Part shown: piece after piece, positions 3,702 to 19,196 of the stretch
Position numbering within the stretch: position 1 is the first letter of the stretch
How the letters are laid out: the number at the start of each line of letters is the position of its first letter
Source: Actinomycetota bacterium
Lineage (GTDB): Bacteria; Actinomycetota; Actinomycetes; Streptosporangiales; Streptosporangiaceae
Assembly (NCBI GenBank): GCA_003168295.1
Contig: PMST01000102.1
Coordinates: forward strand, 19,311-38,506
Reading direction: 5' to 3'
DNA: 19,196 bases
Translations under genes and position numbers: made by a program
The notes under the pieces: model-generated
What the model saw: only the letters and a program-made list of their open reading frames with translations
Databases searched by the model: none
What the model was told of the DNA's origin: nothing

Positions 3702-4559
3702 ATGGCATGGATTGAGCTTGAGGGTGCGGTCAACGTGCGTGACCTGGGGGGCCTGCCCACCGAGGATGGCAGGCGAACCGCGGGAGGCCGGCTGCTGCGT
3801 GCGGATAACCTGCAGGAGCTGTCGCCATCCGACGTCGCGAAGCTGGTGCGCGACATCGGCGTGACCACGGTCGTGGACCTGCGCAGCTCCAACGAGCTGA
3901 AGTCGGAGGGCCCGGCGCCGCTGGACGCCGTCGCGGGGGTGCGCCATGCTCACCACCCGGTGCTTCCCGAACGCGGATCCAACACCGACATGATCGCCGA
4001 AGCGCTGCTCACCATGGCCGATCGCGATAAGTCGCGCTACCCGGATGATCCCGTCTGCGGGCACTACCTGGGTTACCTGGAAGACCGTCCCGATCAGATT
4101 GTGGCCGCGCTGCGCAGCATCGCGCACTCTGAGGGCGCGGCGCTGGTCCACTGCGCCGCGGGCAAGGACAGGACCGGTGTGGTGGTGGCTCTCGCGCTCA
4201 CCGTCGCCGGAGTCCGCGCGCAGGACGTGGTCGAGGATTACGCCGCGTCGGGGGATCGCGCCGAAGCCATCGTGGCCCGGCTGCGCAGGTCCCGCACGTA
4301 CGCCAGGGACATCGACAGCAAGCCCGTCACCGCGCACCGGGTGCGGGCAGAGACGATGGCAGCGTTTCTTGAGCAGATGGCAGCTCGCTACGATGGGGTC
4401 ACCCGGTGGCTGACCGACCACAGCCTCGTCGCCGAGGACCTGCAGCTGCTGCGCGCCAAACTCCGCGATTCCGCCGACCGGCAAACCCCCGAAGACAGCC
4501 GCCGCTTAGCTGTCCGCCCCGGACAGCCGCCCGAGGGGGAAAGGCGGGAGGACGCGTAG
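3702..4559 (+). CDS. PF13350-type tyrosine phosphatase
   Basis: 285 residues from the ATG at 3702, which follows AAGG with a 7-nt gap. An upstream in-frame extension to 3588 has no ribosome binding site and an unrelated composition, so I rejected it. The N-terminus (GAVNVRDLGGLPTEDGR...GRLLRADNL) is the classic opening of the IphP/Y_phosphatase3 family. The P-loop CX5R is HCAAGKDRTG at 150-159, with catalytic C151 and R157. Members dephosphorylate phosphotyrosine and sometimes phosphoinositides or other small phosphate esters. The last 54 bases overlap the 3' end of the convergent metallophosphoesterase gene. No signal peptide is seen, so it is presumably cytosolic. The substrate is not deducible. 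Confidence 0.88.
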   Translation: MAWIELEGAVNVRDLGGLPTEDGRRTAGGRLLRADNLQELSPSDVAKLVRDIGVTTVVDLRSSNELKSEGPAPLDAVAGVRHAHHPVLPERGSNTDMIAEALLTMADRDKSRYPDDPVCGHYLGYLEDRPDQIVAALRSIAHSEGAALVHCAAGKDRTGVVVALALTVAGVRAQDVVEDYAASGDRAEAIVARLRRSRTYARDIDSKPVTAHRVRAETMAAFLEQMAARYDGVTRWLTDHSLVAEDLQLLRAKLRDSADRQTPEDSRRLAVRPGQPPEGERREDA

Positions 4560-6176
4560 TTCGGTGTTCCTGTCGCGGGGGGTGCCGGGCAGGGCGGCGG
4601 TGCCCCAGGGGATGTTGGCCGCAAGCTCGCGATGCAAGGCGGCGAGGTCGTCCGTGGTCTCCAGCGACGCCGCGGCGGTCGGCGTGTCATGGTCGACCAT
4701 CGTGGTCACGATGGACAGGTACTCGCCATGATCGAGGATCTCGACCACCCGGGTCTGGCACGGCCAGTCGACCACCGCGCAGGTGGTGACCTCCCAGAAT
4801 CCGCGGGCCGGGTCGGCCGGGTCACTGCGCGGCCGGACCGCGTTGGTGTGCGTATGGCCGTTCAGCCACAGCACGACGTTCGGGAATCGGTGCAGCAGGG
4901 CGAGTAGGTCGGCCGCGCCGAGCAGCGGCTCACCTCCCGGCCCGGCGTGCTCGCCGCGGGTGTTGGTCAGCGTGTCGATCCCGTGGTGGGACAGCAGGAT
5001 CACCAGCCGGTCCTCGCGGCCGGTCCTGACGTCGGTGCCGTCCGGTTCGCGGTAGGCCGAATGCACCTCGGCGAGCCGGGTTTCCAGCCACCGGGCCTGC
5101 TGGCGGTCCAGGCAGCCGGCCGCGCCGCCGGCCAGGCAGTTGGTGTCGAGCGTGATGAACCGCACCGCGGGCGTGTCGTAGGCGTAGTACGCGGTGCCGT
5201 CCAGGCGGTTGCGCTCGGCGAACCCGTGTCCGAACGGCCTTGAGCCGGCCCGCAGGTGCGCGTCGACGAAGTCCCGCCTGCTGATCGGCCCCCGGAAGGG
5301 ATCAGGCGTGACGTGCCGGGACGGACCCGACATGAACACCTCGGGATGGCAGGTGAAGAGCTCAAGCGCGGCGTCATGATCGAAGCCGGCCGGCAACCCG
5401 GCCGGCTTCTTGCCGCCCGTCAGCGCGGCGGCCAGACCGGGCGTCTGGACGCCGACGCCCTGGTTAAGGGCCTCATGATTGCCGAAGCAGGATAGCCACG
5501 GGACGCGCAGGCCCGAAGCGGAGAACTCGCGCAGCGCGCGCCGCAGCAGCCCCGGATAGTACGGGAAGCCGAATTCGCGCGCGAAGAAGTCGGGACCGCC
5601 GGGACCCGGACCGTCCGGTCTCCAGAAAATGTCGCCCGGCCAGTCAGGCGACTGCACGCCCTCGTAATCGGGACCGCCGGAATCCGGCGATACCACCCCG
5701 CCCTCGAACAGGGCGATGAACGCCTGCAGTTCATTCCACTGCGCATTGTCGATCGCGTCGCCCGTCGTCACGGCCAGTTGCAGCGCCAGGCCGGTCGCCG
5801 GGCCGTGTACCGCTTCGAGGGTGCGGATGGTGGCATCGACCGCGTGCCACGTCAGTGCCTCCTGGGGACGCTGCACAGGGACGATCTCGGCGTACCTGGG
5901 GTCCGCGAAGTAAGCGTTGAGGAACTCGAACCGGGCCGGCGACTGGACGTCGGCGAGCTGCAGGTCAGTGATGTGGGCCAGGCAGAGCAGCGCACGACCG
6001 GCATCGCGCGCGGGCTCAGGCCTCCCGGGGCGGGTACCGCCGAGTTCGGCGCGGATGAGGTGCGGTTCACCCGCGCCGGCCTCGACGGCCCGGTAGGGCG
6101 CCGAGGCCCCGCGGCGGAGTACCGCTCCGGGCTGAAGCCGGCGGTGCGTCGTGAGCGGCGGCTGCCCGCCGCTCAC
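4506..6176 (-). CDS. metallophosphoesterase, TIGR03767-like
   Basis: 556 residues, last gene of ABC operon 1. Metal-site motifs of calcineurin-like phosphoesterases appear in order: HITDLQ (D71), TTGDAIDN (D140), SCFGNHE (N233-H234), LLSHHG and WLNGHTHTN. The GEPHLIR region and TDLQLADVQSPARFE recall the actinobacterial TIGR03767 (PPA1498) family. The usual Asp-X-His of motif I reads Asp-Leu-Gln here (Q73), a possible change in one metal ligand. Its ATG shares ATGA with the stop of the transporter ATPase gene, so translation is coupled to import. No signal peptide is seen. I infer that it hydrolyses an imported phosphoester or a phosphonate ester; the substrate is unknown. Confidence 0.85.
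   Translation of the reverse strand: MSGGQPPLTTHRRLQPGAVLRRGASAPYRAVEAGAGEPHLIRAELGGTRPGRPEPARDAGRALLCLAHITDLQLADVQSPARFEFLNAYFADPRYAEIVPVQRPQEALTWHAVDATIRTLEAVHGPATGLALQLAVTTGDAIDNAQWNELQAFIALFEGGVVSPDSGGPDYEGVQSPDWPGDIFWRPDGPGPGGPDFFAREFGFPYYPGLLRRALREFSASGLRVPWLSCFGNHEALNQGVGVQTPGLAAALTGGKKPAGLPAGFDHDAALELFTCHPEVFMSGPSRHVTPDPFRGPISRRDFVDAHLRAGSRPFGHGFAERNRLDGTAYYAYDTPAVRFITLDTNCLAGGAAGCLDRQQARWLETRLAEVHSAYREPDGTDVRTGREDRLVILLSHHGIDTLTNTRGEHAGPGGEPLLGAADLLALLHRFPNVVLWLNGHTHTNAVRPRSDPADPARGFWEVTTCAVVDWPCQTRVVEILDHGEYLSIVTTMVDHDTPTAAASLETTDDLAALHRELAANIPWGTAALPGTPRDRNTELRVLPPFPLGRLSGADS
5382..5409. repeat. perfect 12-bp inverted repeat inside the phosphoesterase gene
   Basis: GAAGCCGGCCGG, a 4-nt loop (CAAC on the plus strand), then the exact reverse complement. 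It lies in codons for KKPAGLPAGFD, so the repeated Pro-Ala-Gly codons may explain it. No T-run follows. Confidence 0.6.
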
Positions 6177-9034: not shown

Positions 9035-10168
9035 CTAGCTGACGGCCTTCGCCCAGTTAGCCGCCAGGTAATTCGCGGCGTCGGTGGACTGGGACGGGCT
9101 GAGGAACACCGGACTTCCGGTGACCGCGGGCAGCTTTGAGGCCGCGCTGGTGTCGATGCTGCCGTTGGACGTCATAGCCTGCTGCTCCACCGGCCGGGCA
9201 CCACCCTGAAGCCAGAGGTTCTGTCCTCCGGTCGCGGACTGCGAATAGAGGAACTCCTCCCACAGCCGGGCCGCCGCCGGGTGCGGGGCGTTCTTGTTGA
9301 CGGCCTGCGCGTAGTACCCGCCCAGGACGGCGTTCGCCGGGATGAACACCTTCCAGTTCGACACGCCCACGTAGCTCGACAGGTTGAGGTAGTCCCAGTC
9401 GAACACGACCGGGGTCGTACCCGCCTTGATGGTCGCGCCGGTCGCCGACACGGGGGAGAAGTTGCCCGCGGCCTTGAGCTTCTGGAAGAAGGACACGCCG
9501 TCGGCAATATTGCTGGCCGTGCCGCCCTCCGCAAGGCTAGCCATCATGACGCCGTTCAGCGCGGCGTTGGCCGAGGTCGGGTTCCCGTTCAGGGCGACCG
9601 CGTTCTTGAACTTCGGGCTGAGCAGGTCGTTGAGCGAGGTGATCGTGCCGAACTTGCTCGAGTACCCGACCGCCATGTAGCCGCCGTAGTCCTGAACCCA
9701 CAGGCCGTTCGTGTCCTTCTGCGCCGTCGGGATGCTGCTCCAGGTGCTGACCTCGTACGGGGCGAACAGGCTGGTGTTGGCCAGGGCGACGGACATGCCG
9801 ATGTCCATGACGTCGGGCGCCTTGGCGGTGCCGTTCTCCGTCTTCACCGCGTCAACCTCCTGCTGGCTGGTGCCATCAGGAAGGGCGGAATTGACCTTGA
9901 TGCCGTAATCCTTCTCGAAGGTCGAGATGATGGTGCCGTAGTTCGCCCACGTCGGCGGGAGCGCGATGACGTTGAGCGTGCCCTCCGCCTTGGCCGCCTT
10001 GACCAGAGCGCTCATGCCGCCTCCGGCCGACGCGGAAGTCTCGTTGGCCCAGTTGACGCTGCTGCCGCCCGAACTCGAGCCCGAGGAGGAACTCGACGAG
10101 CATCCGGCGGCCGCAAACAATGCCGCGGCCGCGACTCCGGCGGCCGCATATCGATAGGACAATTTCAC
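9035..10168 (-). CDS. ABC importer substrate-binding lipoprotein, operon 1
   Basis: 377 residues with a GTG start after AGGAGG (4-nt gap). The signal peptide MKLSYRYAAAGVAAAALFAAAGC has lipobox AAGC with C23 as the lipidated residue, followed by a flexible Ser/Gly linker, so the protein is tethered outside the membrane. The fold is of the SBP_bac_6/8 class (ferric, polyamine, AEP binders): AEGTLNVIALPPTWANYGTI, VQDYGGYMAVGYSS, NGNPTSANAA, AARLWEEFLYS, GGQNLWLQGGARPVE. It shares most of these blocks with the SBP at 11758-12909. The ligand cannot be read directly; the neighbouring phosphoesterase suggests an organophosphorus compound. A LacI-type palindrome lies upstream. Confidence 0.92.
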   Translation of the reverse strand: MKLSYRYAAAGVAAAALFAAAGCSSSSSSGSSSGGSSVNWANETSASAGGGMSALVKAAKAEGTLNVIALPPTWANYGTIISTFEKDYGIKVNSALPDGTSQQEVDAVKTENGTAKAPDVMDIGMSVALANTSLFAPYEVSTWSSIPTAQKDTNGLWVQDYGGYMAVGYSSKFGTITSLNDLLSPKFKNAVALNGNPTSANAALNGVMMASLAEGGTASNIADGVSFFQKLKAAGNFSPVSATGATIKAGTTPVVFDWDYLNLSSYVGVSNWKVFIPANAVLGGYYAQAVNKNAPHPAAARLWEEFLYSQSATGGQNLWLQGGARPVEQQAMTSNGSIDTSAASKLPAVTGSPVFLSPSQSTDAANYLAANWAKAVS

Positions 10169-10294
10169 AGTGCCTCCTGAAAGCTTTCCCTGTCCCGAAG
10201 CGGATCACGGCGGCCCGAAAAAGGATCCGGGCGGCGGTACCGAGGAGGTCTACCGACCCACTAATCCCCCAGCTGAGAGTGCAGGATAAACGCA

Positions 10295-10309
10295 TCTAAA
10301 ACGTTTAGA
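10295..10309. promoter_or_regulatory. candidate LacI-family operator before operon 1
   Basis: TCTAAAACGTTTAGA contains AAACGTTT (10299-10306), a perfect palindrome with the central CpG usual for LacI-family operators; the flanks TCTAAA/TTTAGA also pair with a one-base offset. It lies about 127 bp upstream of the SBP start, right after the LacI-type gene. It stands out as AT-rich in a GC-rich setting. Assignment to this regulator is inferred from position. Confidence 0.6.
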
Positions 10310-10319
10310 GTTCGAATGC

Positions 10320-11411
10320 TCACACACGCGCTGGAAGGGTGTCAAGGGACGTTACCGAGTTGTCGCACTGGGCCGTGCGGGCACTGGGTGAACGGACAAA
10401 GTCCGGTGCCCGCAGGGACGCGCGTTCGACCAGTTCCACCGGAGCGACGTAATCGGTGGGCGGATCCCAGTCGAGCAAGCGTGTCATCAGAGCCCGGCCC
10501 ATCTCCTGGCCGTCGACGCGGATGGTCGCCAAGGGCGGATCGAGGAGCTCAGAGGTCGGCAGGTCGTCATGCCCGATGACCGAGACGTCCGGCCCGATCC
10601 GCAGGGACAGGTCACGGGTGGTCTTGTAGATTCCGAGCGCCGTGTAATCGGAGTTGGTGATGATCGCCGTGGGGGCGTCCCCGCGCGTCAGCAGGGTCCT
10701 GGCGGCCTTGCGCACGTCGGCGACCGTCAGGGACGAGCGCATCACGTGCGGCCGGACGCCGAGTTCACGGGCGTGGCGGCGGAAATAGCGCAACCGGTCG
10801 GTGTCGGCCGCCATGCCGCGCGGCGCGGACAGGAAGGCGGCGGAGGTGTGACCTAGTTCGGCGAGGCGGCGCATCGCCAGCTCCACCCCGACCGCATTAT
10901 CGGGGTACACCCGGGACACCCCGGCGAAGCCCTCCATGGACGCGTTCAGCGCCACCACCGGGGTACCGGGTCGCAACTCCTGCCACAGCCGAACGGACTC
11001 GCCGTCGCCGACCGGGGCGATGGCCAGGCCGGCCAGGCGCTGGGCGGCCATTTCCCGCACGTGCATGCGCTCGCGTTCCATCGAGTAGTGCGAGTCAAGG
11101 AGCAGCAAGGTTACGTCCGCCTCGTCCGCCGCCCGTTCGGCTCCGGTCAGCACCTCGAGGAAGAAGGGATTGCTGAAGTTGCGGATGACCAGGCCGTAGG
11201 TGGTGGTGCGTCCTCGCCGCAGCGCCTGGGCCTGCGGGTTGGCGCGGTACCCAAGCTCCGCCGCAGCCGCCAGGATCCGCCGGCGGGTATCCTCCGCGAC
11301 CCCAGGCTGGCCGTTGAGAGCGAAGCTCACCGAGGCGACTGAGACGCCGGCCTTCCGCGCAACGTCACGAATTCCCGCTGGCTGCCGCGATCCGCCCTGC
11401 TGATTCGTCAT
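10320..11411 (-). CDS. LacI/GalR-family transcriptional regulator
   Basis: 363 residues from the ATG at 11411; an in-frame extension to 11486 adds residues unlike the family. The helix-turn-helix is at about 13-33 (GIRDVARKAGVSVASVSFALNG), the hinge at 56-70 (RANPQAQALRRGRTT), then a periplasmic-binding-protein-like effector domain (TYGLVIRNFSNPFFLEVLTGAERAADEADVTLLL ... DVSVIGHDDLPTSELLDPPLATIRVD). Such proteins are usually repressors released by a small ligand, often a sugar. Its gene lies directly upstream of operon 1 on the same strand, with a good operator candidate at 10295-10309, so it is the likely local regulator of operon 1. The ligand is unknown. Confidence 0.92.
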   Translation of the reverse strand: MTNQQGGSRQPAGIRDVARKAGVSVASVSFALNGQPGVAEDTRRRILAAAAELGYRANPQAQALRRGRTTTYGLVIRNFSNPFFLEVLTGAERAADEADVTLLLLDSHYSMERERMHVREMAAQRLAGLAIAPVGDGESVRLWQELRPGTPVVALNASMEGFAGVSRVYPDNAVGVELAMRRLAELGHTSAAFLSAPRGMAADTDRLRYFRRHARELGVRPHVMRSSLTVADVRKAARTLLTRGDAPTAIITNSDYTALGIYKTTRDLSLRIGPDVSVIGHDDLPTSELLDPPLATIRVDGQEMGRALMTRLLDWDPPTDYVAPVELVERASLRAPDFVRSPSARTAQCDNSVTSLDTLPARV

Positions 11412-11757
11412 GGCCTTATCCACCCTTGACGCTCTGCTTCCCCCGAAAGGAGCGGATGTACGTCGCTGAGCGCACATCCTAGCCACCGCGGCAGGCCGCC
11501 AGCCAGATGGCGGTCGCAGCGCATCGCGCCGCGGCCGAGAAGAATTTTCCCGAAGCGGCGGCTGTCACCTCGTGCGACACGGTGGATGGCTCGGCACCCC
11601 AAGTCAGGGACATCACCAACCTGACCGCTAACTAACGCCTGACCGTCATGGCCTGGCTACCTCCGGTTTGCCTTGACTAGCCATGATCTCCACTTGTCTA
11701 GCCAAGATTCGGCGGCTTGTCCCCATATTCGGGGGCTGTGGTTTGGGAGGGATAATT
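11412..11757. other. divergent intergenic region between lacI-type gene and operon 2
   Basis: About 346 bp without a supportable gene. It must hold the leftward promoter of the LacI-type gene and the rightward promoter of operon 2. Two things stand out: an imperfect inverted repeat GGATGTACG ... CGCACATCC at 11454-11479, and tandem direct repeats at 11672-11705 (annotated separately). Confidence 0.6.
11672..11705. promoter_or_regulatory. tandem operator-like boxes before operon 2
   Basis: CTTGACTAGCCA at 11672-11683 and CTTGTCTAGCCA at 11693-11704 are direct repeats with a 21-bp period, two helical turns, so both boxes face the same side of the DNA. Each is an imperfect palindrome TTGnCTAGnCAA, resembling sites of HutC/GntR-type regulators (PhnF, NagR, DasR class: TGGTCTAGACCA). 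The left box contains a -35-like TTGACT and the right one covers the expected -10. The right box recurs with one change at 17721-17734. Confidence 0.65.
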
Positions 11758-12909
11758 TTGCGAGCAAGGCATGCTATTGCGGCAAGCGCCGCGGTTGCCA
11801 GCGGCCTGCTGCTTACCGTCGGCTGCGGTTCCTCGAGTTCAAGCAGCGATAGCACAAGTGGTAGCACAAGCAGCGGGACCAACTGGGCCACCGCCAGCTC
11901 TGTCTCGGCGGGGGGTGGCATGACCGCGCTGATCGCGGCGGCCAAGAAGGAGGGCCAGCTCAACGTCATTACGCTGCCTGCCAACTGGGCCAACTACGGC
12001 ACGATCATGAAGGACTTCACCGCCAAGTACGGCATCAAGATCAACGACGCTAACCCGGACGGTTCCAGCCAGGACGAGCTCAACGCGGTCAACCAGCTCA
12101 AGGGCCAGAGCCGTGCACCTGATGTCCTCGACGTGGGCACGGCGTTCGGGGTTAAGGGCGACCAGGAGGGCATCCTGGCCCCTTACAAGGTGGCGACCTG
12201 GAGCGACATCCCGGCTGAGGCCAAGGCGGCGGACGGCACCTACTACGCCGACTACGGCGGCTACGTGGCCATCGGGTACAACTCGGCGAAGGTGAAGACC
12301 CCGCCGACGTCGTTCGCGTCCCTGCTGAATCCTGAATACAAGAACGAGGTCGCCATCAACGGCAACCCGACCCAGGCCAGCGCTGCCTTCTCGGCCGTGT
12401 TCGCCGCGGCGCTCGCCAACGGCGGCTCGCTCGACAATATCGCGCCCGGCATCGCGTACTTCAAGAAGCTGCACAGCGCGGGCAACTTTGTGCCGGTCAC
12501 CGCGAGTGCGGCGACCATGGAGAGCGGCCAGACCCCGATCGTGATCTGGTGGGATTACCTGCTGGCCTCCGAGATCGGCCCGAGCGTTCCCGGCCTCAAG
12601 ATCGTGATCCCGTCGGACGCTTCGTACGCCGCATACTACGACCAGGCCATCAGCAAGTACGCCCCTGACCCGGCCGCGGCCAGGCTCTGGGAGGAGTACC
12701 TCTACTCCACCACGGGCCAGAACCTTTGGCTCCAGGGAGAGGCCCGGCCAATCGAGCTGCCGTCACTGGTGTCAGCCGGAACGGTCGATCAGACGGCGTA
12801 CAAGGCACTGCCGCCCGCCCCGGCCGGGAATGTGACCTTCCCGACCCAGGCACAGCAGTCCGCGGCGGAATCCCTTGTCGCCCAGCAGTGGTCTAGCGTG
12901 ATCGGCTAG
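11758..12909 (+). CDS. ABC importer substrate-binding lipoprotein, operon 2
   Basis: 383 residues from a TTG start at 11758, preceded by GGGAGG with a 7-nt gap; the upstream ATG at 11683 lies inside the operator boxes and was rejected. The signal sequence (RARHAIAASAAVASGLLLTVGC) ends in a lipobox with C23, then a Ser/Thr linker. The body matches the operon 1 SBP: KEGQLNVITLPANWANYGTI, YADYGGYVAIGYNS, NGNPTQASAA, IVIWWDYLLA, AARLWEEYLYS, GQNLWLQGEARPIE. The class includes 2-aminoethylphosphonate binders. Shared operator boxes with the phosphonate genes to the right suggest a phosphonate ligand, possibly AEP or its N-methylated forms. This is an inference. Confidence 0.92.
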   Translation: MRARHAIAASAAVASGLLLTVGCGSSSSSSDSTSGSTSSGTNWATASSVSAGGGMTALIAAAKKEGQLNVITLPANWANYGTIMKDFTAKYGIKINDANPDGSSQDELNAVNQLKGQSRAPDVLDVGTAFGVKGDQEGILAPYKVATWSDIPAEAKAADGTYYADYGGYVAIGYNSAKVKTPPTSFASLLNPEYKNEVAINGNPTQASAAFSAVFAAALANGGSLDNIAPGIAYFKKLHSAGNFVPVTASAATMESGQTPIVIWWDYLLASEIGPSVPGLKIVIPSDASYAAYYDQAISKYAPDPAAARLWEEYLYSTTGQNLWLQGEARPIELPSLVSAGTVDQTAYKALPPAPAGNVTFPTQAQQSAAESLVAQQWSSVIG

Positions 12910-12911
12910 CT

Positions 12912-13874
12912 GTGGACCAGACAGTAGCGGCCTCCGGGGCCCCGGGATCCTTCACGGATCCCGGGGCCCCCGGGCCGGGCCCCGCCGCGGCACCCGGGCC
13001 GCCCGCGAAGCTGACCGTGCCGGGTGCCGTGCGCTGGCTGCGCCGGGTGGCGGGGATCGTGCCTTTCGGCGTCTACGTGACGCTCGGCCTGCTGCTGCCG
13101 ATGATCGCGGTGGCGGTCGGAGCATTCCAGAGCAACAGCGGCGGCTTCACGCTGAGCAACGTCCACGCCGCCACCCACGGCGTATACCTGCATGGCTTCG
13201 AGCAGACCATCATCTTGTCCGCGGTTACCTCCATCGTGCCGGGGATCCTCGGGCTGCTGATCGCGTACGCGATCTTCACGGCCAACCGCGGGACGATCCT
13301 GCGCCAGGTCGCGGTGACCGCGTCCGGCGTGTTCGCCAACTTCGGCGGGGTGCCCTTGGCCTTCCTGTTCATCGCTACTCTGGGCTCCAGCGGGCTCGCC
13401 ACCCAGTGGCTGACCGACCTCGGATTCAACCCCTATGATCACGGCTTCAGCCTGTACACGCTGGCTGGCGTAGTGGTCGTGTACATGTACTTCCAGATCC
13501 CGCTCATGGTGCTTGTCATCTTGCCGGCTCTGGAGGGGCTTCGTCCGGCCTGGCGCGAAGCCGCCCAGAACCTGGGCGCGCGGACCTGGGATTACTGGCG
13601 CTTCGTGGGTGGCCCGGTGCTGCTGCCGTCGTTCCTCGGGTGCGTGCTGCTGCTGTTCGGCAGCGCCTTGTCCGCTTACGCCACCGCTGAGGCACTGACC
13701 ACGGGAACCATCCCGCTGACCGCGATCCAGATCGGGTCGTTCCTGAACGGCAACGTCATCGCCGGCCAGGAGAACATCGGCAAGGCCCTCGGCCTGGGCA
13801 TGGTCGTCATCATCGCGGTCGCCATGGTGCTCTACGTCGCGCTGCAGCGGAGGTCGGCCAAATGGCTGCGATAA
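12912..13874 (+). CDS. ABC permease 1, operon 2 (PotB/PhnU-like)
   Basis: 320 residues from a GTG 2 nt after the SBP stop; no Shine-Dalgarno is evident, so translation is probably coupled. The N-terminal 35 residues are a low-complexity Gly/Pro/Ala stretch, partly encoded by a 15-bp hairpin. The membrane part begins VAGIVPFGVYVTLGLLLPMIAVAV. The EAA loop reads REAAQNLGARTWDYWRFVGGPVLLP, close to its operon 1 paralogue, and both proteins end in a (R/K)WLR tail. If translation instead begins at a later GTG (for instance near 13018, VPGAVRWLRR), the hairpin would be untranslated leader. Confidence 0.9.
   Translation: MDQTVAASGAPGSFTDPGAPGPGPAAAPGPPAKLTVPGAVRWLRRVAGIVPFGVYVTLGLLLPMIAVAVGAFQSNSGGFTLSNVHAATHGVYLHGFEQTIILSAVTSIVPGILGLLIAYAIFTANRGTILRQVAVTASGVFANFGGVPLAFLFIATLGSSGLATQWLTDLGFNPYDHGFSLYTLAGVVVVYMYFQIPLMVLVILPALEGLRPAWREAAQNLGARTWDYWRFVGGPVLLPSFLGCVLLLFGSALSAYATAEALTTGTIPLTAIQIGSFLNGNVIAGQENIGKALGLGMVVIIAVAMVLYVALQRRSAKWLR
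12936..12970 (+). repeat. 15-bp hairpin with TTCAC(G) loop in permease 1, operon 2
   Basis: GGGGCCCCGGGATCC, a 5-nt loop TTCAC, then the perfect reverse complement. It lies 26 nt after the SBP stop and covers nucleotides 25-59 of the permease gene. No T-run follows. The loop and closing bases (CCTTCACGG) match the operon 1 hairpin although the stems differ. Confidence 0.85.
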
Positions 13875-14689
13875 CGCGCCCGCCAGGAGCCGGAAGGCGG
13901 GAGTCGCTGCCGATCTGGCGCTGGGTGATACTGGTCCTGGCCGGCATCTACTTCGTCATCCCGCTGATCGCGGCGTTCCGGTTCACCGGAACCAGCGCCT
14001 TCGGCTCGGTCATCAGCGAGTCGGGCTTCACGGCGTCCCTCGCGCTGTCGGTCAAGCTCGCCGTCATCACGACGGTGATCACGATCGCGCTCATGCTGCC
14101 CACGGCGGTCTATGTCCACCTCCGGCTGCCCAGGCTCCGGCGGCTGCTCGAGGGAATCACGATCCTGCCGATCGTCATCCCGCCCGTGGTGCTGATCGTG
14201 GGCGTGCTGCAGATCGCCCCGGGCTTCATCAAGAGCACGCCGTACCTGCTCGCCCTGGAATACGTCGTGCTGGCCATGCCGTTCGCGTACCGCGCCATAG
14301 ACGCCGGGCTGCGTGCGCTTGACCTGAAGACCATCACCGAAGCGGCCAGCTCACTGGGCGCGAGCTGGAACAGCACGCTGTGGCGGGTGATCCTGCCGAA
14401 CCTCAGCACGGCATTGCTTTCCTCGGTGGTGCTGACGGTAGCCCTGGTTCTCGGCGAGTTCACCATGGCCAGCCTGGACCTGTACCAGACCTTCCCGGTG
14501 TGGATCTACGTCAACAGCCAGACCAGCGGTCAGGTCTCGGTCGCGGCCTCATTGCTCTCGCTGTTCGTGACCTGGCTGGTCCTGATGGCCATCACGGTGA
14601 TCGGTACCCGGCGGTCGCGCAAGCGCGGCGGCGGCTCAGTCACGTTGTTTACCACCGCGCGTCAAGAAACAGCTGGGGGAGAATTATGA
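13862..14689 (+). CDS. ABC permease 2, operon 2 (PotC/PhnV-like)
   Basis: 275 residues. The ATG lies inside the last codons of permease 1 (ATGGCTGCGATAA), a 13-nt overlap identical in length to operon 1. Helices begin WRWVILVLAGIYFVIPLIAAF; the EAA loop reads TITEAASSLGASWNSTLWRVILPNLS. The C-terminal tail is basic (RRSRKRGGG) and then runs on to a TGA that overlaps the ATPase start as ATGA. With permease 1 it forms the channel of the second importer. Confidence 0.92.
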   Translation: MAAITRPPGAGRRESLPIWRWVILVLAGIYFVIPLIAAFRFTGTSAFGSVISESGFTASLALSVKLAVITTVITIALMLPTAVYVHLRLPRLRRLLEGITILPIVIPPVVLIVGVLQIAPGFIKSTPYLLALEYVVLAMPFAYRAIDAGLRALDLKTITEAASSLGASWNSTLWRVILPNLSTALLSSVVLTVALVLGEFTMASLDLYQTFPVWIYVNSQTSGQVSVAASLLSLFVTWLVLMAITVIGTRRSRKRGGGSVTLFTTARQETAGGEL

Positions 14690-15807
14690 CCGCCAACAAC
14701 GGCAGGAACGCCGCCGCAACGGCGGCTGGTATCGGGCTGGCCGACGGGAGTAGCGGAACCAGCGTGCTCCTGGAGGACCTGACTCGTATATTCGGGGCCA
14801 CCCGGGCCCTGGACGGGCTGTCGATTCAGATGGCACCCGGTGAGCTCGTCGCGCTTCTTGGTCCCTCGGGCTGCGGCAAGACGACCGCCCTGCGCATCGT
14901 GGCCGGCTTCGAGTTCGCGGACGGCGGCTCGGTCCTGATTGACGGCAAGGACATCTCGTCGGTGCACGCTTCCCGGCGGGACATGGGCATGGTGTTCCAG
15001 AGCTACAGCCTGTTCCCGAACATGTCGGCACTCGACAACGTGGCCTTCGGGCTCCGGATGCGCAAGATGGGCGCCGGAGAGCGCCGTAAGCGTGCCGCCG
15101 GGCTGCTGGACATGGTCGGCCTGGCCGGTCAGGCCGCACAGTACCCGCACCAGCTATCCGGCGGTCAGCAGCAGCGCGTCGCGCTGGCCCGCGCGCTGGC
15201 CATCGAGCCCCGGGTGCTGCTGCTCGACGAGCCGCTGTCCGCCCTCGACGCCAAGGTGCGCCAGCAACTGCGGGAGCAGATCCGCCTTCTGCAACAGCAG
15301 CTCGGCACCACCACCCTGTTCGTCACCCACGACCAGGAGGAGGCCCTGTCGATGGCCGACCGGGTCGGCATCATGCGGCAGGGCAAGCTGGAGCAGATCG
15401 CCGCGCCCGACGAGCTGTATTCGGACCCAGCGACTCCGTTCGTGGCCGAGTTCGTCGGCGTCATGAACCGGATCCCCGGCGAGCTGCAAGCCGGCGGGAC
15501 GGTGCTGGTACTCGGCACTAACGTGCCGGTCCGCGGCCAGGGCCCCGACGGGGTCGACGGCAACGCCGTGGACGTGCTGGTGCGGCCGGAAGGGCTGAAG
15601 ATGGAGGTCACGGAGCACGGAAACGGGATCGTGACCACCCGGACCTTCCTCGGCTCGGTGACCCGGGTCGGGGTCCAGCTCTCCACCGATGTCGCTGTCC
15701 GGATCGACAAGTCGAGCGTCGAGGCGGCCGCACTGGCCCCGGGCACGTCGGTGTCGGTGACGCTGCCGCCAGAGGCGGTACACGTCGTCCCTCGGTCAGC
15801 CAGCTGA
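14686..15807 (+). CDS. ABC importer ATP-binding protein, operon 2 (PotA/PhnT-like)
   Basis: 373 residues from the ATG at 14686, preceded by GGGGGAGA and overlapping the permease stop by 4 nt. The frame stays open upstream to 14380, but that part is antiphase to the permease and not coding. Walker A GPSGCGKT is at 59-66, Q-loop Q105, signature LSGGQ at 157-161, Walker B VLLLDEP at 177-183, switch H215, and a TOBE-type C-terminal region (VDVLVRPEGLKMEV ... TRTFLGSVTRVGVQL). It ends operon 2; unlike operon 1, no phosphoesterase gene follows. A bidirectional hairpin lies just downstream. Confidence 0.93.
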   Translation: MTANNGRNAAATAAGIGLADGSSGTSVLLEDLTRIFGATRALDGLSIQMAPGELVALLGPSGCGKTTALRIVAGFEFADGGSVLIDGKDISSVHASRRDMGMVFQSYSLFPNMSALDNVAFGLRMRKMGAGERRKRAAGLLDMVGLAGQAAQYPHQLSGGQQQRVALARALAIEPRVLLLDEPLSALDAKVRQQLREQIRLLQQQLGTTTLFVTHDQEEALSMADRVGIMRQGKLEQIAAPDELYSDPATPFVAEFVGVMNRIPGELQAGGTVLVLGTNVPVRGQGPDGVDGNAVDVLVRPEGLKMEVTEHGNGIVTTRTFLGSVTRVGVQLSTDVAVRIDKSSVEAAALAPGTSVSVTLPPEAVHVVPRSAS

Positions 15808-15830
15808 CCCGGGAGCTAGACGCGCAAGAG

Positions 15831-15873
15831 CCAGCTGGTCGGCCTGCCGCACGAGGCGGGCCGGCCCAGCTGG
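15831..15873. terminator. candidate bidirectional terminator between operon 2 and the HAD gene
   Basis: CCAGCTGG-CGGCC-GCC on the left pairs with GGC-GGCCG-CCAGCTGG on the right around a 6-nt loop (15849-15854), with one or two internal mismatches. It sits in the 90-bp gap between convergent genes. T-runs are weak on both sides (GGTTAAACC follows), as is common in actinomycetes. Confidence 0.6.
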
Positions 15874-15897
15874 GTTAAACCGCGGAACAGGGTGCCG

Positions 15898-16575
15898 TCA
15901 GGCCAAGGAAGAATCGATATGCGGAAGGATGCCCGCGATCGTATCCAGGATGATGGGCGCGCCCGCCTGTTCGAGGTCGGCGCGGGAGCTGGCGCCGGTC
16001 AGCACGCCGGCGACGATCGCGGCCCCGGCCCGCAGCCCGGACTCGATGTCGCTGCCTGTGTCGCCGGCTACCGCCAGCTCGCCGACGGCGCCGCCGCGCA
16101 GCCGCAGCAGGGCGGTCAGCGGCAAGTCGGGCCAGGGACGGCCACGGCCCGCATCGGCGGGGGACAGCGCCAGGTCGATCAGCCCGCCCCAGCCGAGCTT
16201 GTCGATGATGGCGTCCCTGGTGACCGGGGAGAAGCCGGTGGCCAGGCAGACCTGCACGCCGGCGTCGCGCAGCCGCGTGATCGTGTCCTCGGCCCCGGGC
16301 ACGGCCGAGATCGCACCGCGCCGGACAGCCGCCGCGTAGTGATCCTCGAACGCCTCGTTGGCCTTCCGCGCGCTGGCATCGTCGCCGAGGATCCGCCGGA
16401 ACACCTCGATCTTGGACTGTCCCATGCTCGACCGCACGTCGGTCATGGCCTGCTGGTATGCCGCCTCGGGCAGGTTCTGCTCGGTGATGGCCCTGGTGAA
16501 CGCCTCCATCACCGTGCCGTCGTCGGCCACCGTCGTGCCCGCCATGTCCAGGCAGGCCACCGTGATGCGGGTCAT
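15898..16575 (-). CDS. phosphonatase-like HAD hydrolase (PhnX-related, TIGR03351-like)
   Basis: 225 residues from the ATG at 16575, with GAGGAG 8 nt upstream and a 4-nt ATGA overlap with the FAD oxidoreductase gene. The HAD nucleophile motif is CLDMAGTTV (D10), the DxAGT form special to phosphonatases. The cap contains MGQSKIEVF: K55 aligns with the Schiff-base lysine of PhnX (MGxxK), but the histidine three residues later in PhnX is V58 here. GRGRPWPDL and AGDTGSDIESGLRAG supply the arginine and acidic motifs. PhnX splits phosphonoacetaldehyde into acetaldehyde and phosphate; the same reaction or a relative is likely, fed by the adjacent oxidase. Confidence 0.88.
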   Translation of the reverse strand: MTRITVACLDMAGTTVADDGTVMEAFTRAITEQNLPEAAYQQAMTDVRSSMGQSKIEVFRRILGDDASARKANEAFEDHYAAAVRRGAISAVPGAEDTITRLRDAGVQVCLATGFSPVTRDAIIDKLGWGGLIDLALSPADAGRGRPWPDLPLTALLRLRGGAVGELAVAGDTGSDIESGLRAGAAIVAGVLTGASSRADLEQAGAPIILDTIAGILPHIDSSLA

Positions 16576-17696
16576 CGAAACGTCTCCTCGGCGATCGCTG
16601 GGGAACATGTCATGCCGCGCCCGCCTGGCCCGGTGACCAGGACCACCCCGGGCTCGACTTCGGATCGGTGGTAGAGGGCGTGTCCGGCCACCGCCGGGGC
16701 TACTTCGCTGTAGACGCCGGCCCAGCGACGCTTTATCCGCGGGATGGGCAGGCCGAGCAGTGTCTGCGCCCGGGCGCGCAGGTGATCGTAGGCGTCTTCG
16801 TCCACGTCGAACGCGAACGGCTCGGCGTATTCGTGCGTGTCCCCGATGGTCAGCCCGCCGTCGGCCCGCTGGACCAGCAGCAGCTGCGCCCGCGCCCGCG
16901 CCGCGGCGGCGGTCTGCGGCGTGAGCTGTCCCCGTCCCGGCAGGTCATAGGCGGGGTAGTAACGCAGCGAGTCACCGTCGGCCAGCGCCGTGGTGATCCG
17001 CTCGGCCAGCGGTGCCGTCTGCATCATCTGCAGCCGGACCCGGCGCACTGCGCCTGCCCCGCCGCGGGCCAGATACCGGCCGGCCACCCCGGTGTGGGCT
17101 GCCCCGGTGCACAGGACCACCAGATCACCGTGGTGCCAGGTCCCCGTGTGATCGCGCACCGCGTTGGGCACGACTTCGGCGACCTCTCGCCCGGGCCGCC
17201 ATTGGTATGCCTCGCCAGCAAGATAGCCGCGCAGCGCGGGCAGCACGTGCCGAGGCTCCACGATCGCATCGAGCCGGCACAGCAGGCCACCCGCGAACTC
17301 GCCGCGCAGCGCCGGGTTGACGGCGCGAACGGCACCCGGATCGAGCAGCTCGAACCCGCGGCGCTGGGCGTCCGGCAGCGCGGCCGCCTCCTTGAGCACG
17401 CCGAGTTCGGCGTCATCGGCGGCCAGCGTGAGCGAGCCCGCGGCCCGGAAACCCAGGCCGGGTATCTCGGCGCCCAGCTCCTGCCACAGTTCGCGGGCTC
17501 GCAGCGCGACCGCGAGTTCCGGGCCCGCCTTGCGGCCGCTCACCCAGACCAGGCCGAAGTTCCTGACGCTGGCCCCGCGGGCCTCGGCTTCCCGTTCCAG
17601 CTGCACGACCTCGAAGCCGCGCCGCCGCGCCGCCACCGCGTGCATGGTGCCGAGCACACCGCCGCCGACAATGATTACCCGTTGCCTGGATGCCAC
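16572..17696 (-). CDS. FAD-dependent amine oxidoreductase of phosphonate catabolism (TIGR03364-like)
   Basis: 374 residues from GTG 17696; an ATG at 17714 gives six more residues but falls inside an operator box and lacks a ribosome binding site. The Rossmann FAD motif RVIIVGGGVLG is followed by an acidic residue at the end of strand 2 (VVQLERE). RGASVRNFGLVWVSGRK and the C-terminal VTGPGGRGMTCSPA fit the DAO-family TIGR03364 group found in phosphonate gene clusters. Related enzymes (named PbfC/PbfD in published work, as I recall) oxidise 2-aminoethylphosphonate or its N-methyl form to phosphonoacetaldehyde. It is cotranslated with the PhnX-like hydrolase, so the pair would turn an aminophosphonate into phosphonoacetaldehyde and then acetaldehyde plus phosphate. 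Confidence 0.88.
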   Translation of the reverse strand: MASRQRVIIVGGGVLGTMHAVAARRRGFEVVQLEREAEARGASVRNFGLVWVSGRKAGPELAVALRARELWQELGAEIPGLGFRAAGSLTLAADDAELGVLKEAAALPDAQRRGFELLDPGAVRAVNPALRGEFAGGLLCRLDAIVEPRHVLPALRGYLAGEAYQWRPGREVAEVVPNAVRDHTGTWHHGDLVVLCTGAAHTGVAGRYLARGGAGAVRRVRLQMMQTAPLAERITTALADGDSLRYYPAYDLPGRGQLTPQTAAAARARAQLLLVQRADGGLTIGDTHEYAEPFAFDVDEDAYDHLRARAQTLLGLPIPRIKRRWAGVYSEVAPAVAGHALYHRSEVEPGVVLVTGPGGRGMTCSPAIAEETFR

Positions 17697-17702
17697 GCTC
17701 AA

Positions 17703-17734
17703 AAGTATAGTCATCTTTGAACTTGTATAGCCAA
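17703..17734. promoter_or_regulatory. divergent promoter region with tandem operator-like boxes
   Basis: AAGTATAGTCAT (17703-17714) and TTGTATAGCCAA (17723-17734) repeat with a 20-bp period. The second, extended as ACTTGTATAGCCAA, matches the operon 2 box ACTTGTCTAGCCAA at 13 of 14 positions. Read leftward, TTGGCT and TATACT within the boxes form a -35/-10 pair (19-bp spacer) ending 7 nt before the GTG of the FAD gene, which suggests a leaderless transcript. Read rightward, TATAGC could be a -10 for the TmpA-like gene. Confidence 0.65.
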
Positions 17735-17791
17735 CTTTAAGTGCTCGGGAGTCTCAGGCACCCGGGGAGAACGCCTTATGGAGGCACCACC

Positions 17792-18979
17792 TTGACCGAC
17801 GGGGATCGCCGCGGAGCCGACGGGTACGAGGCGCTTGAGCTGGTGACCGGCGGACGGAAGCTGCGTTTCCCGGCGGTATGGCTGCGGGACAACTGCCCGT
17901 GCGTCCAGTGCGTTGATCCCGGCAGCGGGCAGAAGCTCCACGACATCACCGATATCCCGAATGAGCTGGTGATCACGGCGACCGAACAGGCAGAAGACCT
18001 GGTGGAAGTGACCTACGCGCCAGGCCAGCACCGGTCCGCCTTCTCTCGCCGGTGGCTGGCCGAGCACGCGCTTGACGGCTACGGCGACGGCGACGGGCGC
18101 ACCGAGGACGACAAGGAACTCTGGCTGCCGGCCGACCTCGGCTCAAAGACCGGGCACGGTGCTGGCCGGAGCCAGGGGCCGCAAGCCAGCTGGCCCAGGT
18201 ACCTGACCGAGTCCGCGGACCGGGCCCGGGCCGTGGACGCGGTGCTGCGCTGGGGTTTCGTGCTGCTGCGCGACGTGCCGGCCGAACCCGGCATGGTACT
18301 CGAGGTCGCCGCGAGCTTCGGGTTCGTGCGCGAGACGAACTATGGCGCCCTCTTTGACGTGCGCGTCCAGCCGGCGCCGGGCAACCTGGCCTACACCAGC
18401 CGCGCGATCCTGCCGCACACGGACAACCCCTACCGCGACCCGGTGCCGACCGTGCAGCTGCTGCACTGCCTGAGCACGGCGGACGACGGGGGAGAAACGG
18501 GCCTGGTCGACGGCTTCGCCGCCGCCGCTGCTCTGCGCGCCGAGGACGCAGAAACGTTTGACGTGCTCACGAGAACCGCCATCCCGTTCGGATATATCGA
18601 TAAAGAGACAGAGCTGCGGGCCAGCCAGCCCCTTATCCAGCTCAGCCCGCGCGGCCGGATTCGCTGGGTGCGGTTCAACAACAGATCGGCGCGGCCGCTG
18701 CGGCTGCCGTACGCCGAGGTCGTCGCGTTCTACCCGGCCTACCGGCGGTGGGCCGGGTTGCTCGCGCAGCCGGAGCGGCAGCTGAACTTCCGGCTGGCGG
18801 CGGGGGACTGCCTGGTCTTCGACAACACGCGGATTCTGCACGCCCGCACCGCGTTCAGCATGACCCCGGACTCGCCGGGGCGCCGCCTGCAGGGCTGCTA
18901 CGCGGACCTGGACGGTCTGGCGAGCACCCTGGCCGTGCTCAGACGGCCGGGGAACCACGAGCTGAGGGAGGAATCGTGA
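17792..18979 (+). CDS. tmpA: TmpA-like Fe(II)/2-oxoglutarate dioxygenase (phosphonate hydroxylase)
   Basis: 395 residues from a TTG at 17792, preceded by GGAGG with a 7-nt gap; the frame extends to GTG 17741 but without a ribosome binding site. The N-terminal zinc domain (DUF971-like) has LRDNCPCVQC with C35, C37, C40 and likely H50. The TauD-type catalytic domain carries H209-x-D211 (LPHTDNPYRDP) and distal H350 (TRILHARTAF), with an arginine region near 364. This is the gamma-butyrobetaine hydroxylase architecture. With the PhnZ-like gene overlapping its stop (GTGA), the best fit is TmpA, which hydroxylates C1 of 2-trimethylaminoethylphosphonate. Butyrobetaine hydroxylase is the alternative, made unlikely by context. 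Confidence 0.85.
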   Translation: MTDGDRRGADGYEALELVTGGRKLRFPAVWLRDNCPCVQCVDPGSGQKLHDITDIPNELVITATEQAEDLVEVTYAPGQHRSAFSRRWLAEHALDGYGDGDGRTEDDKELWLPADLGSKTGHGAGRSQGPQASWPRYLTESADRARAVDAVLRWGFVLLRDVPAEPGMVLEVAASFGFVRETNYGALFDVRVQPAPGNLAYTSRAILPHTDNPYRDPVPTVQLLHCLSTADDGGETGLVDGFAAAAALRAEDAETFDVLTRTAIPFGYIDKETELRASQPLIQLSPRGRIRWVRFNNRSARPLRLPYAEVVAFYPAYRRWAGLLAQPERQLNFRLAAGDCLVFDNTRILHARTAFSMTPDSPGRRLQGCYADLDGLASTLAVLRRPGNHELREES

Positions 18980-19196
18980 CAGGAATCGAGGCCATCGCGG
19001 AGCTGTTCGCTGGCCCGGGGGCGCGGGACTACCTGGGTGAGCCGGTGACGATCGGCATCCACATGCGGCAGGCCGGTGCGCTGGCCGAGGCGGCCGGGGC
19101 AGAACAGCCGCTGGTGGCCGCGGCCCTTTTGCACGACATCGGTCACCTGCGCCAGGAAAGCGACAGCCGGCACGGGGACGCGGGCGCGCAGTGGCT
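18976..19196 (+). CDS. tmpB: PhnZ/TmpB-like HD-domain mixed-valent diiron oxygenase (partial)
   Basis: The first 73 codons are present; the window ends inside the gene. GTG at 18976 shares GTGA with the tmpA-like stop and follows GGAGG. Y19, E22 and H29 (DYLGEPVTIGIH) and H53-D54 with H57 (LLHDIGHL) keep the spacing I recall for PhnZ Y24, E27, H34, H58-D59 and H62 with a constant offset of 5. H66 (SRHGDAGAQWL) is a further candidate ligand. PhnZ cleaves 1-hydroxy-2-aminoethylphosphonate to glycine and phosphate; TmpB does the same with the trimethyl form, giving glycine betaine. It is the expected second step after the TmpA-like hydroxylase. Confidence 0.87.
   Translation, partial: MTGIEAIAELFAGPGARDYLGEPVTIGIHMRQAGALAEAAGAEQPLVAAALLHDIGHLRQESDSRHGDAGAQW

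Follow-up and report, generated by a model that had tools for sequence, protein, structure and literature searches.

A shared operator and a linked GntR/UTRA regulator gene point to a probable local regulon of the HutC type for the use of methylated aminoethylphosphonates in actinobacteria

Several kinds of control have been described for other phosphonate pathways, namely LysR, Pho, CbrAB/NtrBC, PhnF and PhnR-type control (PMC7866108, PMC10574752, PMC11203657, PMC5351497, PMC9426474, PMC9381506; here and below, citations refer to the available portions of each source). In M. smegmatis, the GntR protein PhnF represses a transporter operon, phnDCE, via two sequences in the promoter region (PMC7866108). 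The enzymes TmpA/TmpB convert the trimethylated form of aminoethylphosphonate into glycine betaine and phosphate (PMC10574752), and FAD enzymes of the PbfD type oxidise N-methyl-aminoethylphosphonate to phosphonoacetaldehyde (PMC10590968). GntR control of TmpA/TmpB was not found in the open-licence literature and may have been reported elsewhere; the term ‘gntr’ is absent from the available text of PMC10574752, PMC10590968 (main texts) and PMC11203657, and ‘tmpa’ from that of PMC5351497, PMC9426474 and PMC9381506. Here we analysed a 19,196-nucleotide stretch of an actinobacterial contig, referred to as the window, in which two similar 20-bp boxes are found, one in the promoter of an ATP-binding cassette (ABC) transporter operon (transporter operon 2, headed by SBP2, a substrate-binding protein (SBP) gene) and the other between divergent genes for an FAD oxidoreductase and TmpA. 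Judging from related loci, the boxes are very probably the operators of one dedicated GntR/UTRA regulator of the HutC type, whose gene is predicted immediately beyond the right end of the window, in convergent orientation to tmpAB.

As with PhnF of M. smegmatis, a GntR protein, an ABC transporter operon and two promoter-region sequences would come together at this locus; unlike PhnF, the orthologues of the regulator fall below the PhnF cut-off, and the gene set is made of oxygenases, a FAD/HAD pair and an aminoethylphosphonate-type transporter. The operator of M. smegmatis PhnF is TGGTATAGACCA. The enzymes resemble TmpA/TmpB of Leisingera caerulea and the PbfC/PbfD FAD oxidases, given that the models NF049936 (barely, with 401.5 bits for the tmpA product and a cut-off of 400) and TIGR03364 are both passed (PMC10574752, PMC10590968), and TIGR03364 would correspond to the PbfD type. 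In contrast to these systems, both routes and the transporter would here stand under one operator. Local phosphonate control by a GntR protein would be shared with PhnR/STM3602 of Salmonella (PMC5351497) and with GntR genes in C-P lyase operons (PMC9426474, PMC9381506), but those belong to other bacteria and other pathways (phosphonoacetate use, C-P lyase). Similarly, AepR and other LysR regulators of phnWX are substrate-linked local regulators of aminophosphonate genes (PMC10574752); however, AepR is a LysR protein of Pseudomonas and the one predicted here a GntR/UTRA protein of Actinobacteria.

The operator motif was obtained de novo by expectation-maximisation on approximately 240 bp around and before the tmpA match of 60 UTRA-bearing loci, leaving out the window and the three loci sharing its gene order (L001, L002 and L007). 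It reads AAAGTTGTATAGCCAACTTT, with a log-likelihood of 993 (best of 25 starts), whereas a single shuffled set reached 83 (best of 8 starts). On scanning the window with this matrix, the two best positions are exactly the two primary boxes, at 36.0 bits (FAD/tmpA) and 19.9 bits (SBP2), while in 60 first-order simulated windows the best score averages 3.5 with a maximum of 18.5; by score alone the SBP2 box is near the edge. In six aligned SBP2 promoters ACTTGTCTAGCCA (13 bases) is invariant, the next-longest conserved stretch being the ribosome-binding region, and the FAD/tmpA primary box could be aligned with boxes in five relatives. Compared with their reverse complements, both 20-mers are identical at 12 of 20 positions. 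Their cores, GTCTAGCC and GTATAGCC, fit 7 of the 8 positions of the HutC-subfamily operator consensus GTMTAKAC (PMC4494728), one half reading CC instead of AC, and the full GT-N4-AC core is present in several Streptomyces sites. The assignment of the boxes to operators of the HutC/GntR-UTRA type, proposed in a preliminary description of this DNA, is borne out by the motif of the related loci and its linkage to UTRA genes.

The same description had started from a pair of 14-mers, ACTTGTCTAGCCAA at 11692-11705 and ACTTGTATAGCCAA at 17721-17734, whose positions, sequences and single-base difference were confirmed, and which are the only zero-mismatch matches in the window to the pattern ACTTGTNTAGNCAA. 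Taken alone, this likeness is not significant, as chance yields many such pairs. Indeed, the window holds 757 pairs of 14-mers with at most one mismatch compared to a mean of 417 in 12 third-order Markov simulations, and 2 AT-rich pairs (at least 8 A/T in both) compared to 8 summed over the 12 simulations (0-3 each). Raw 14-mer resemblance was hence rejected as proof of a shared site, being too common by chance, and the matter was therefore taken to a comparison with other loci.

The loci compared are the best 80 of 588 TmpA relatives, collected with a TmpA profile of 20 sequences, and 77 of them are actinobacterial by title or tree label. The closest one, L001, has 73% TmpA identity and, in a quick tree, is the sister of the window. 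The gene order of the window (SBP2, permease A, permease B, ATPase, HAD and FAD genes reversed, tmpA, tmpB) recurs in L001, L002 and L007, and in all three a convergent UTRA gene follows tmpB at the point where the window ends, in agreement with the GntR/UTRA gene that had been expected right of position 19196. A GntR/UTRA gene is present in 63 of the 80 loci, the other 17 being judged on DNA that is short in several cases. Of the 63 loci with a UTRA gene, 61 have the site no farther than 300 bp from tmpA, versus 2 of the 17 without, and it is present in 7 of 1048 random 320-bp segments. The genes headed by the site were counted with sites of at least 12 bits and on segments with a sequenced 5' end, some genes being counted twice; the motif behind the counts was trained on tmpA upstream DNA alone. 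The site precedes 43/47 SBP, 5/5 FAD, 63/86 tmpA and 35/69 UTRA segments, and none of the 157 operon-internal ones (45 permease A, 45 permease B, 44 ATPase, 6 HAD and 17 TmpB). The four SBP segments lacking it are those of L001 operon 1, a second SBP2 piece of L001, L003 (8.2 bits) and a second SBP of L076. As for the FAD genes, those of L001, L002 and L007 share one site with tmpA, and L028 and L149 have their own. These counts in relatives favour the proposal that a single regulator would govern uptake, the FAD/HAD route and the TmpA/TmpB route together.

The most telling case is Trebonia kvetii, in which the link between regulator and genes is kept after rearrangement. Here a UTRA gene is immediately followed, on its own strand, by the FAD-HAD pair, with a tandem operator separating the UTRA stop from the FAD start; the SBP-permease-ATPase-TmpA operon is ~ 20 kb away from the FAD-HAD pair and carries a box of its own. 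The two window sites are most likely operators of one regulator, because site and regulator gene recur by the same genes in many soil actinobacteria. Furthermore, the contig sizes 2724, 10348, 11303 and 71059 are common to the TmpA and UTRA metagenome tables (values above ~ 2,500 only, 91 and 68 distinct), whereas 0.43 would be expected and 2000 jittered sets gave at most 3. This supports a TmpA-UTRA linkage in metagenomes, not in this organism; among the 120 UTRA proteins listed, none has the contig size 66,248, the longest of the window's TmpA cluster.

On the protein side, the orthologues of L001, L002, L007 and L051 all contain a GntR helix-turn-helix (PF00392) and a UTRA domain (PF07702), both above cut-off. 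Of five orthologues tested, three have PhnF as best NCBIfam model (L001, L002 and L051) and two HutC (L007 and L023), and the five reach the cut-off neither of HutC TIGR02018 (best 105.6 bits, cut-off 220) nor of PhnR TIGR03337 (best 87.7 bits, cut-off 296.75). The closest solved structures by sequence are DasR and NagR, 3f8m (M. smegmatis PhnF) being matched as well. The NagR residues Arg38 and Arg48 contact G(-5) and G(-4), respectively (PMC4333415). The equivalent of Arg48, in the recognition helix, is an arginine in 63/63 regulators, taken one from each UTRA-bearing locus (58 by pattern, 5 by eye), while the equivalent of Arg38 is an arginine in 0/63, the residue there being G, S, D, A, H, E or N. 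With Arg48 kept and Arg38 lost, half-sites with G at -4 and T at -5 are expected, as found in both half-sites of the window boxes. The likeness to DasR and NagR/YvoA extends from the closest structures and 7 of the 8 core consensus positions to the Arg48-G(-4) contact, whereas the Arg38-G(-5) contact of NagR is lost here on both the protein and the DNA sides; sugar-phosphate effectors of the DasR/NagR type would not be expected.

By comparison, then, these loci have a common operator, a linked regulator gene and a recurrent gene set headed by the operator, which argues for a local regulon of the HutC type serving the use of methylated aminoethylphosphonates. We infer that the regulator binds as dimers to the SBP2 promoter and to the promoter region between the divergent FAD and tmpA genes; the weaker left box, at a distance of two helical turns, would probably take up a second dimer in this lineage. 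The bound regulator would most likely block, rather than activate, three units, i.e. uptake (SBP2, permeases and ATPase), the FAD/HAD route, which would take N-methylated aminoethylphosphonate via phosphonoacetaldehyde to phosphate, and the TmpA/TmpB route, by which glycine betaine and phosphate would be formed from the trimethylated compound. The inducer, freeing the DNA from the regulator, would be a phosphonate or an early metabolite bound in the UTRA domain, repression until the phosphonate binds being proposed by analogy with M. smegmatis PhnF at its transporter operon. Such a regulon would define which regulator, which operator and which genes underlie methylated aminoethylphosphonate use in soil actinobacteria; other genes of the pathway could be searched for with the operator, and a phosphonate sensor could be built from the regulator. 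A wider reading is tentative and, on balance, rather doubtful: a hitherto undescribed actinobacterial ‘TmpR’ family might control the whole methylated-aminoethylphosphonate line, from release by a co-regulated enzyme of the endonuclease/exonuclease/phosphatase (EEP) fold in some Streptomycetaceae to uptake and two parallel breakdown routes corresponding to the degree of N-methylation, with a UTRA domain sensing the phosphonate directly. If so, the loss of Arg38 and that of G(-5) would represent a matched specificity change setting the group apart.

A second, weaker box, previously reported 20-21 bp to the left of each primary box, is indeed present at both window sites, with spacings of 21 bp (SBP2) and 20 bp (tmpA). 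Tandem sites occur twice each in L001 and L002 and once each in the window, L003, L007, L050, L057, L061, L149, L152 and L153. A second box at 20 bp is also seen in L001, L002, L003, L007, L061, L149, L152 and L153. The left box of the FAD/tmpA promoter is kept in the window, L001, L002, L007 and L149 and partly in L003; part of it may be kept because it would also be a -10 element of the FAD promoter. Among the six SBP2 promoters, the left box is recognisable only in the window, L001 and L002, and not in L007, L076 and L151, and nearly all Streptomycetaceae loci have a single box. In a survey of GntR regulators, extra half-sites are described at 7-12 nt, and -20/-21 served as null in the available portion of that work (PMC4494728); the GntR family therefore does not generally have a complete second box at 20-21 bp.

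In the nearest genome available, the 6.7-Mb metagenome-assembled genome of L001, the motif is not scattered over many unrelated loci: the strict 15-mer occurs twice, both times at cluster promoters. Over nine genomes 12 of its 17 matches are at cluster or regulon genes (one being an EEP-fold gene) and 5 elsewhere. Exact ACTTGTMTAGCCAA is found six times in four genomes, always at SBP, tmpA or FAD promoters, as are 2 of its 3 matches at one mismatch. Overall, these comparisons support the earlier interpretation of the boxes.

Several observations weigh against the regulon, or limit it. The reversed strict 15-mer gave 15 matches versus 17 in the nine genomes, so that match number alone does not discriminate; ACTTGTMTAGCCAA with at most two mismatches gave 34 matches in four genomes versus 115 for the control, and signal and background are separated by location alone. 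A positive second score at 20 or 21 bp is seen at 13 of 121 primary sites, hence the tandem arrangement does not extend to the sites in general, and the left boxes are weak and lineage-bound. The promoter of transporter operon 1, to the left of operon 2, is absent from the window's 14 best matrix positions. Of 69 UTRA segments, 34 lack an upstream site, including those of L001, L002 and L007; the Catenulispora loci L017 and L067 have a linked UTRA gene and no canonical site, and L037 and L046 have the site and no UTRA gene in the DNA examined. A tree-aware test of UTRA gene versus operator, with L076 and L151 scored site-positive because their operon has one, had 5 independent pairs to draw on, all from well-supported branches (same direction 3.1, opposite 0.0 and neutral 1.9 on average), and its outcome is in the right direction and not significant (median p 0.25); with only five such comparisons, shared ancestry explains part of the co-occurrence count. 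The four genomes searched contain 4 to 13 UTRA matches each, the regulator-operator link therefore resting on adjacency, and the regulator gene of this organism is a prediction from its relatives, placed beyond the window end. Finally, membership in the group that includes PhnF holds as far as the GntR and UTRA domains of the orthologues are concerned, but all five stay below the PhnF cut-off (TIGR02325, best 107.5 bits, cut-off 156.8).

Other explanations were weighed against these data. A GntR/UTRA regulator acting as an activator, or with a non-phosphonate ligand, is unlikely. It would suit the position of the SBP2 box, ~ 50-70 bp before the SBP2 start codon, and both the repressive mode and the ligand are proposals in the regulon reading; however, the HutC-type proteins DasR, NagR and M. 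smegmatis PhnF are described as repressors in the portions of the literature cited above, the primary tmpA box lies at the expected transcription start of a promoter-like pair (17682-17711), and the R-x-R pair by which NagR and DasR hold phosphate is kept in L001. The boxes had also been described as covering probable -35 and -10 elements. This holds in part, the consensus scan giving one promoter-like site, the above pair, with the left box as its -10, and none in 11400-11900, where TTGACT inside the SBP2 left box could act as a -35. That the boxes would be nothing else than conserved core promoter elements is nevertheless very improbable: TATAGT/TATACT in the left tmpA box do resemble -10 hexamers, but the motif is a 20-bp near-palindrome exceeding a promoter element in length, its distance to tmpA differs among loci, it tracks the UTRA gene, and its exact copies in four genomes are confined to SBP, tmpA or FAD promoters. 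Slightly less credible still is binding by the LacI-type regulator of the window, even though it is the sole regulator found beside these operons, its gene diverges from SBP2 around the SBP2 box, and L001 has the same LacI beside the site; indeed, in L002 both promoters carry operators and the 3.8 kb left of the SBP2 box contain no LacI match, L007 has no LacI match either (within 0.8 kb only), a single one of 6 LacI-like segments among the loci has a site nearby, and the box has a HutC-type GT-N4-(A/C)C core. A chance resemblance of the two boxes, for which the frequency of one-mismatch 14-mer pairs in a 19-kb window and the simulated window at 18.5 bits could be invoked, is practically negligible, since a matrix from other genomes picks precisely their positions and 13 bases of the SBP2 box are invariant in six loci.

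The features of the window around the two operators are collected in Table 1. The genes of transporter operon 2 are closest to a 2-aminoethylphosphonate-type ABC transporter, with SBP2, the permeases and the ATPase all scoring below the cut-offs of those models. The GTG at 17696 is a possible leaderless start of the FAD gene, this choice of start following L001 and L149. TmpA was also compared to plasmid sequences, giving 40 records, all of less than 60% identity. A GntR gene is absent from the open reading frame (ORF) list of the window and was detected neither by scanning its main ORFs for families nor by a similarity search with three UTRA seeds. A 25.5-bit similarity at 11649-11993 (-), antisense to SBP2, was taken as an artefact, because the seed, L051, had been cut from stop to stop and carried an antisense extension.

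Table 1. Coordinates of genes, boxes and promoter-like elements around the two predicted operators of the window
Feature	Position	Strand	Remarks
LacI-type regulator gene	10320-11414		ORF list and family scans; diverges from SBP2 around the SBP2 box
Weaker left box, SBP2 promoter	11669..11688	+	21 bp from primary box; matrix score -2.4, fifth in window
Primary operator box (predicted), SBP2 (transporter operon 2) promoter, CCACTTGTCTAGCCAAGATT	11690..11709	+	19.9 bits, second in window
SBP2, substrate-binding protein, PhnS-like (below cut-off)	11758..12909	+	TTG start after GGGAGGG
Permease A2	12912..13874	+	Family scan
Permease B2	13862..14689	+	Family scan
ATPase 2, best model PhnT2	14686..15807	+	392.3 bits, cut-off 457.7; start from ORF reading
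HAD phosphonatase-like hydrolase, TIGR03351	15898..16608	-	197 bits, below cut-off 218.9
FAD oxidoreductase, TIGR03364 HpnW	16572..17696	-	312.3 bits, above cut-off 285.1
Promoter-like pair TTGCCT-N18-TATAGT for tmpA	17682..17711	+	Consensus scan; no evidence of function
Weaker left box, FAD/tmpA	17699..17718	+	20 bp from primary box; matrix score 5.6, third in window
Candidate -10 (TATACT), leftward FAD/HAD unit	17704..17709	-	Sequence reading; 7 nt before GTG 17696
Primary operator box (predicted), FAD gene/tmpA intergenic region, GAACTTGTATAGCCAACTTT	17719..17738	+	36.0 bits, best in window
tmpA, 2-trimethylaminoethylphosphonate dioxygenase, NF049936	17792..18979	+	TTG start after TATGGAGG
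tmpB, first 73 codons, cut by window end	18976..19194	+	Family scan

To the left of transporter operon 2, the window contains the LacI regulator and transporter operon 1. This further transporter operon of the phosphonate type, noted at 9035-11414 (-), comes with a LacI gene and lacks a copy of the operator. It ends with a gene at 4506-6176 (-) that encodes a TIGR03767 metallophosphoesterase (above cut-off), and a homologue (41%) is likewise found downstream of transporter genes in L003. A terminator-like stem of 6 pairs is present at 11719-11736 (+), downstream of the SBP2 box and ahead of the SBP2 start, where shuffles average 0.4; it may be due to chance.

The heptamer GTTCAYC, which we take to resemble the Streptomyces Pho-box unit, is absent from the three window promoter stretches tested. 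In the 220 bp before tmpA it is found in 32 of 80 loci on the coding strand versus 8 of 80 on the reverse strand and 94 of 1244 random segments, with no pair at 11 or 22 bp in L001-L080. Upstream of the UTRA gene of the Catenulispora loci L017 and L067, there are boxes of the form CTTGGTCC(C/T)ACAAG, L067 showing a similar box ~ 20 bp to the left as well; the operator may possibly have changed here together with its regulator. At L091 (G005), a separate near-palindrome, GAACTTGTCTGAACAAGTTG, lies close to two ORFs, one of which has a GntR-like start (MTARHEEIADELRKAID), and another regulator may use a similar site there. The operator also precedes a gene related to an EEP-fold protein (PF03372) in L014, L029, L044, L059 and L075, i.e. 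in all five loci holding one (5 of 7 segments), and the same pair of operator and EEP-fold gene is seen at L090, in the K. xanthocidica genome, away from the cluster. The PF03372 match is just above cut-off in L044 and L090, and the L075 piece has no Pfam match. The EEP-fold gene is a candidate fourth member of the regulon, perhaps encoding a phosphodiesterase that would release the phosphonate.

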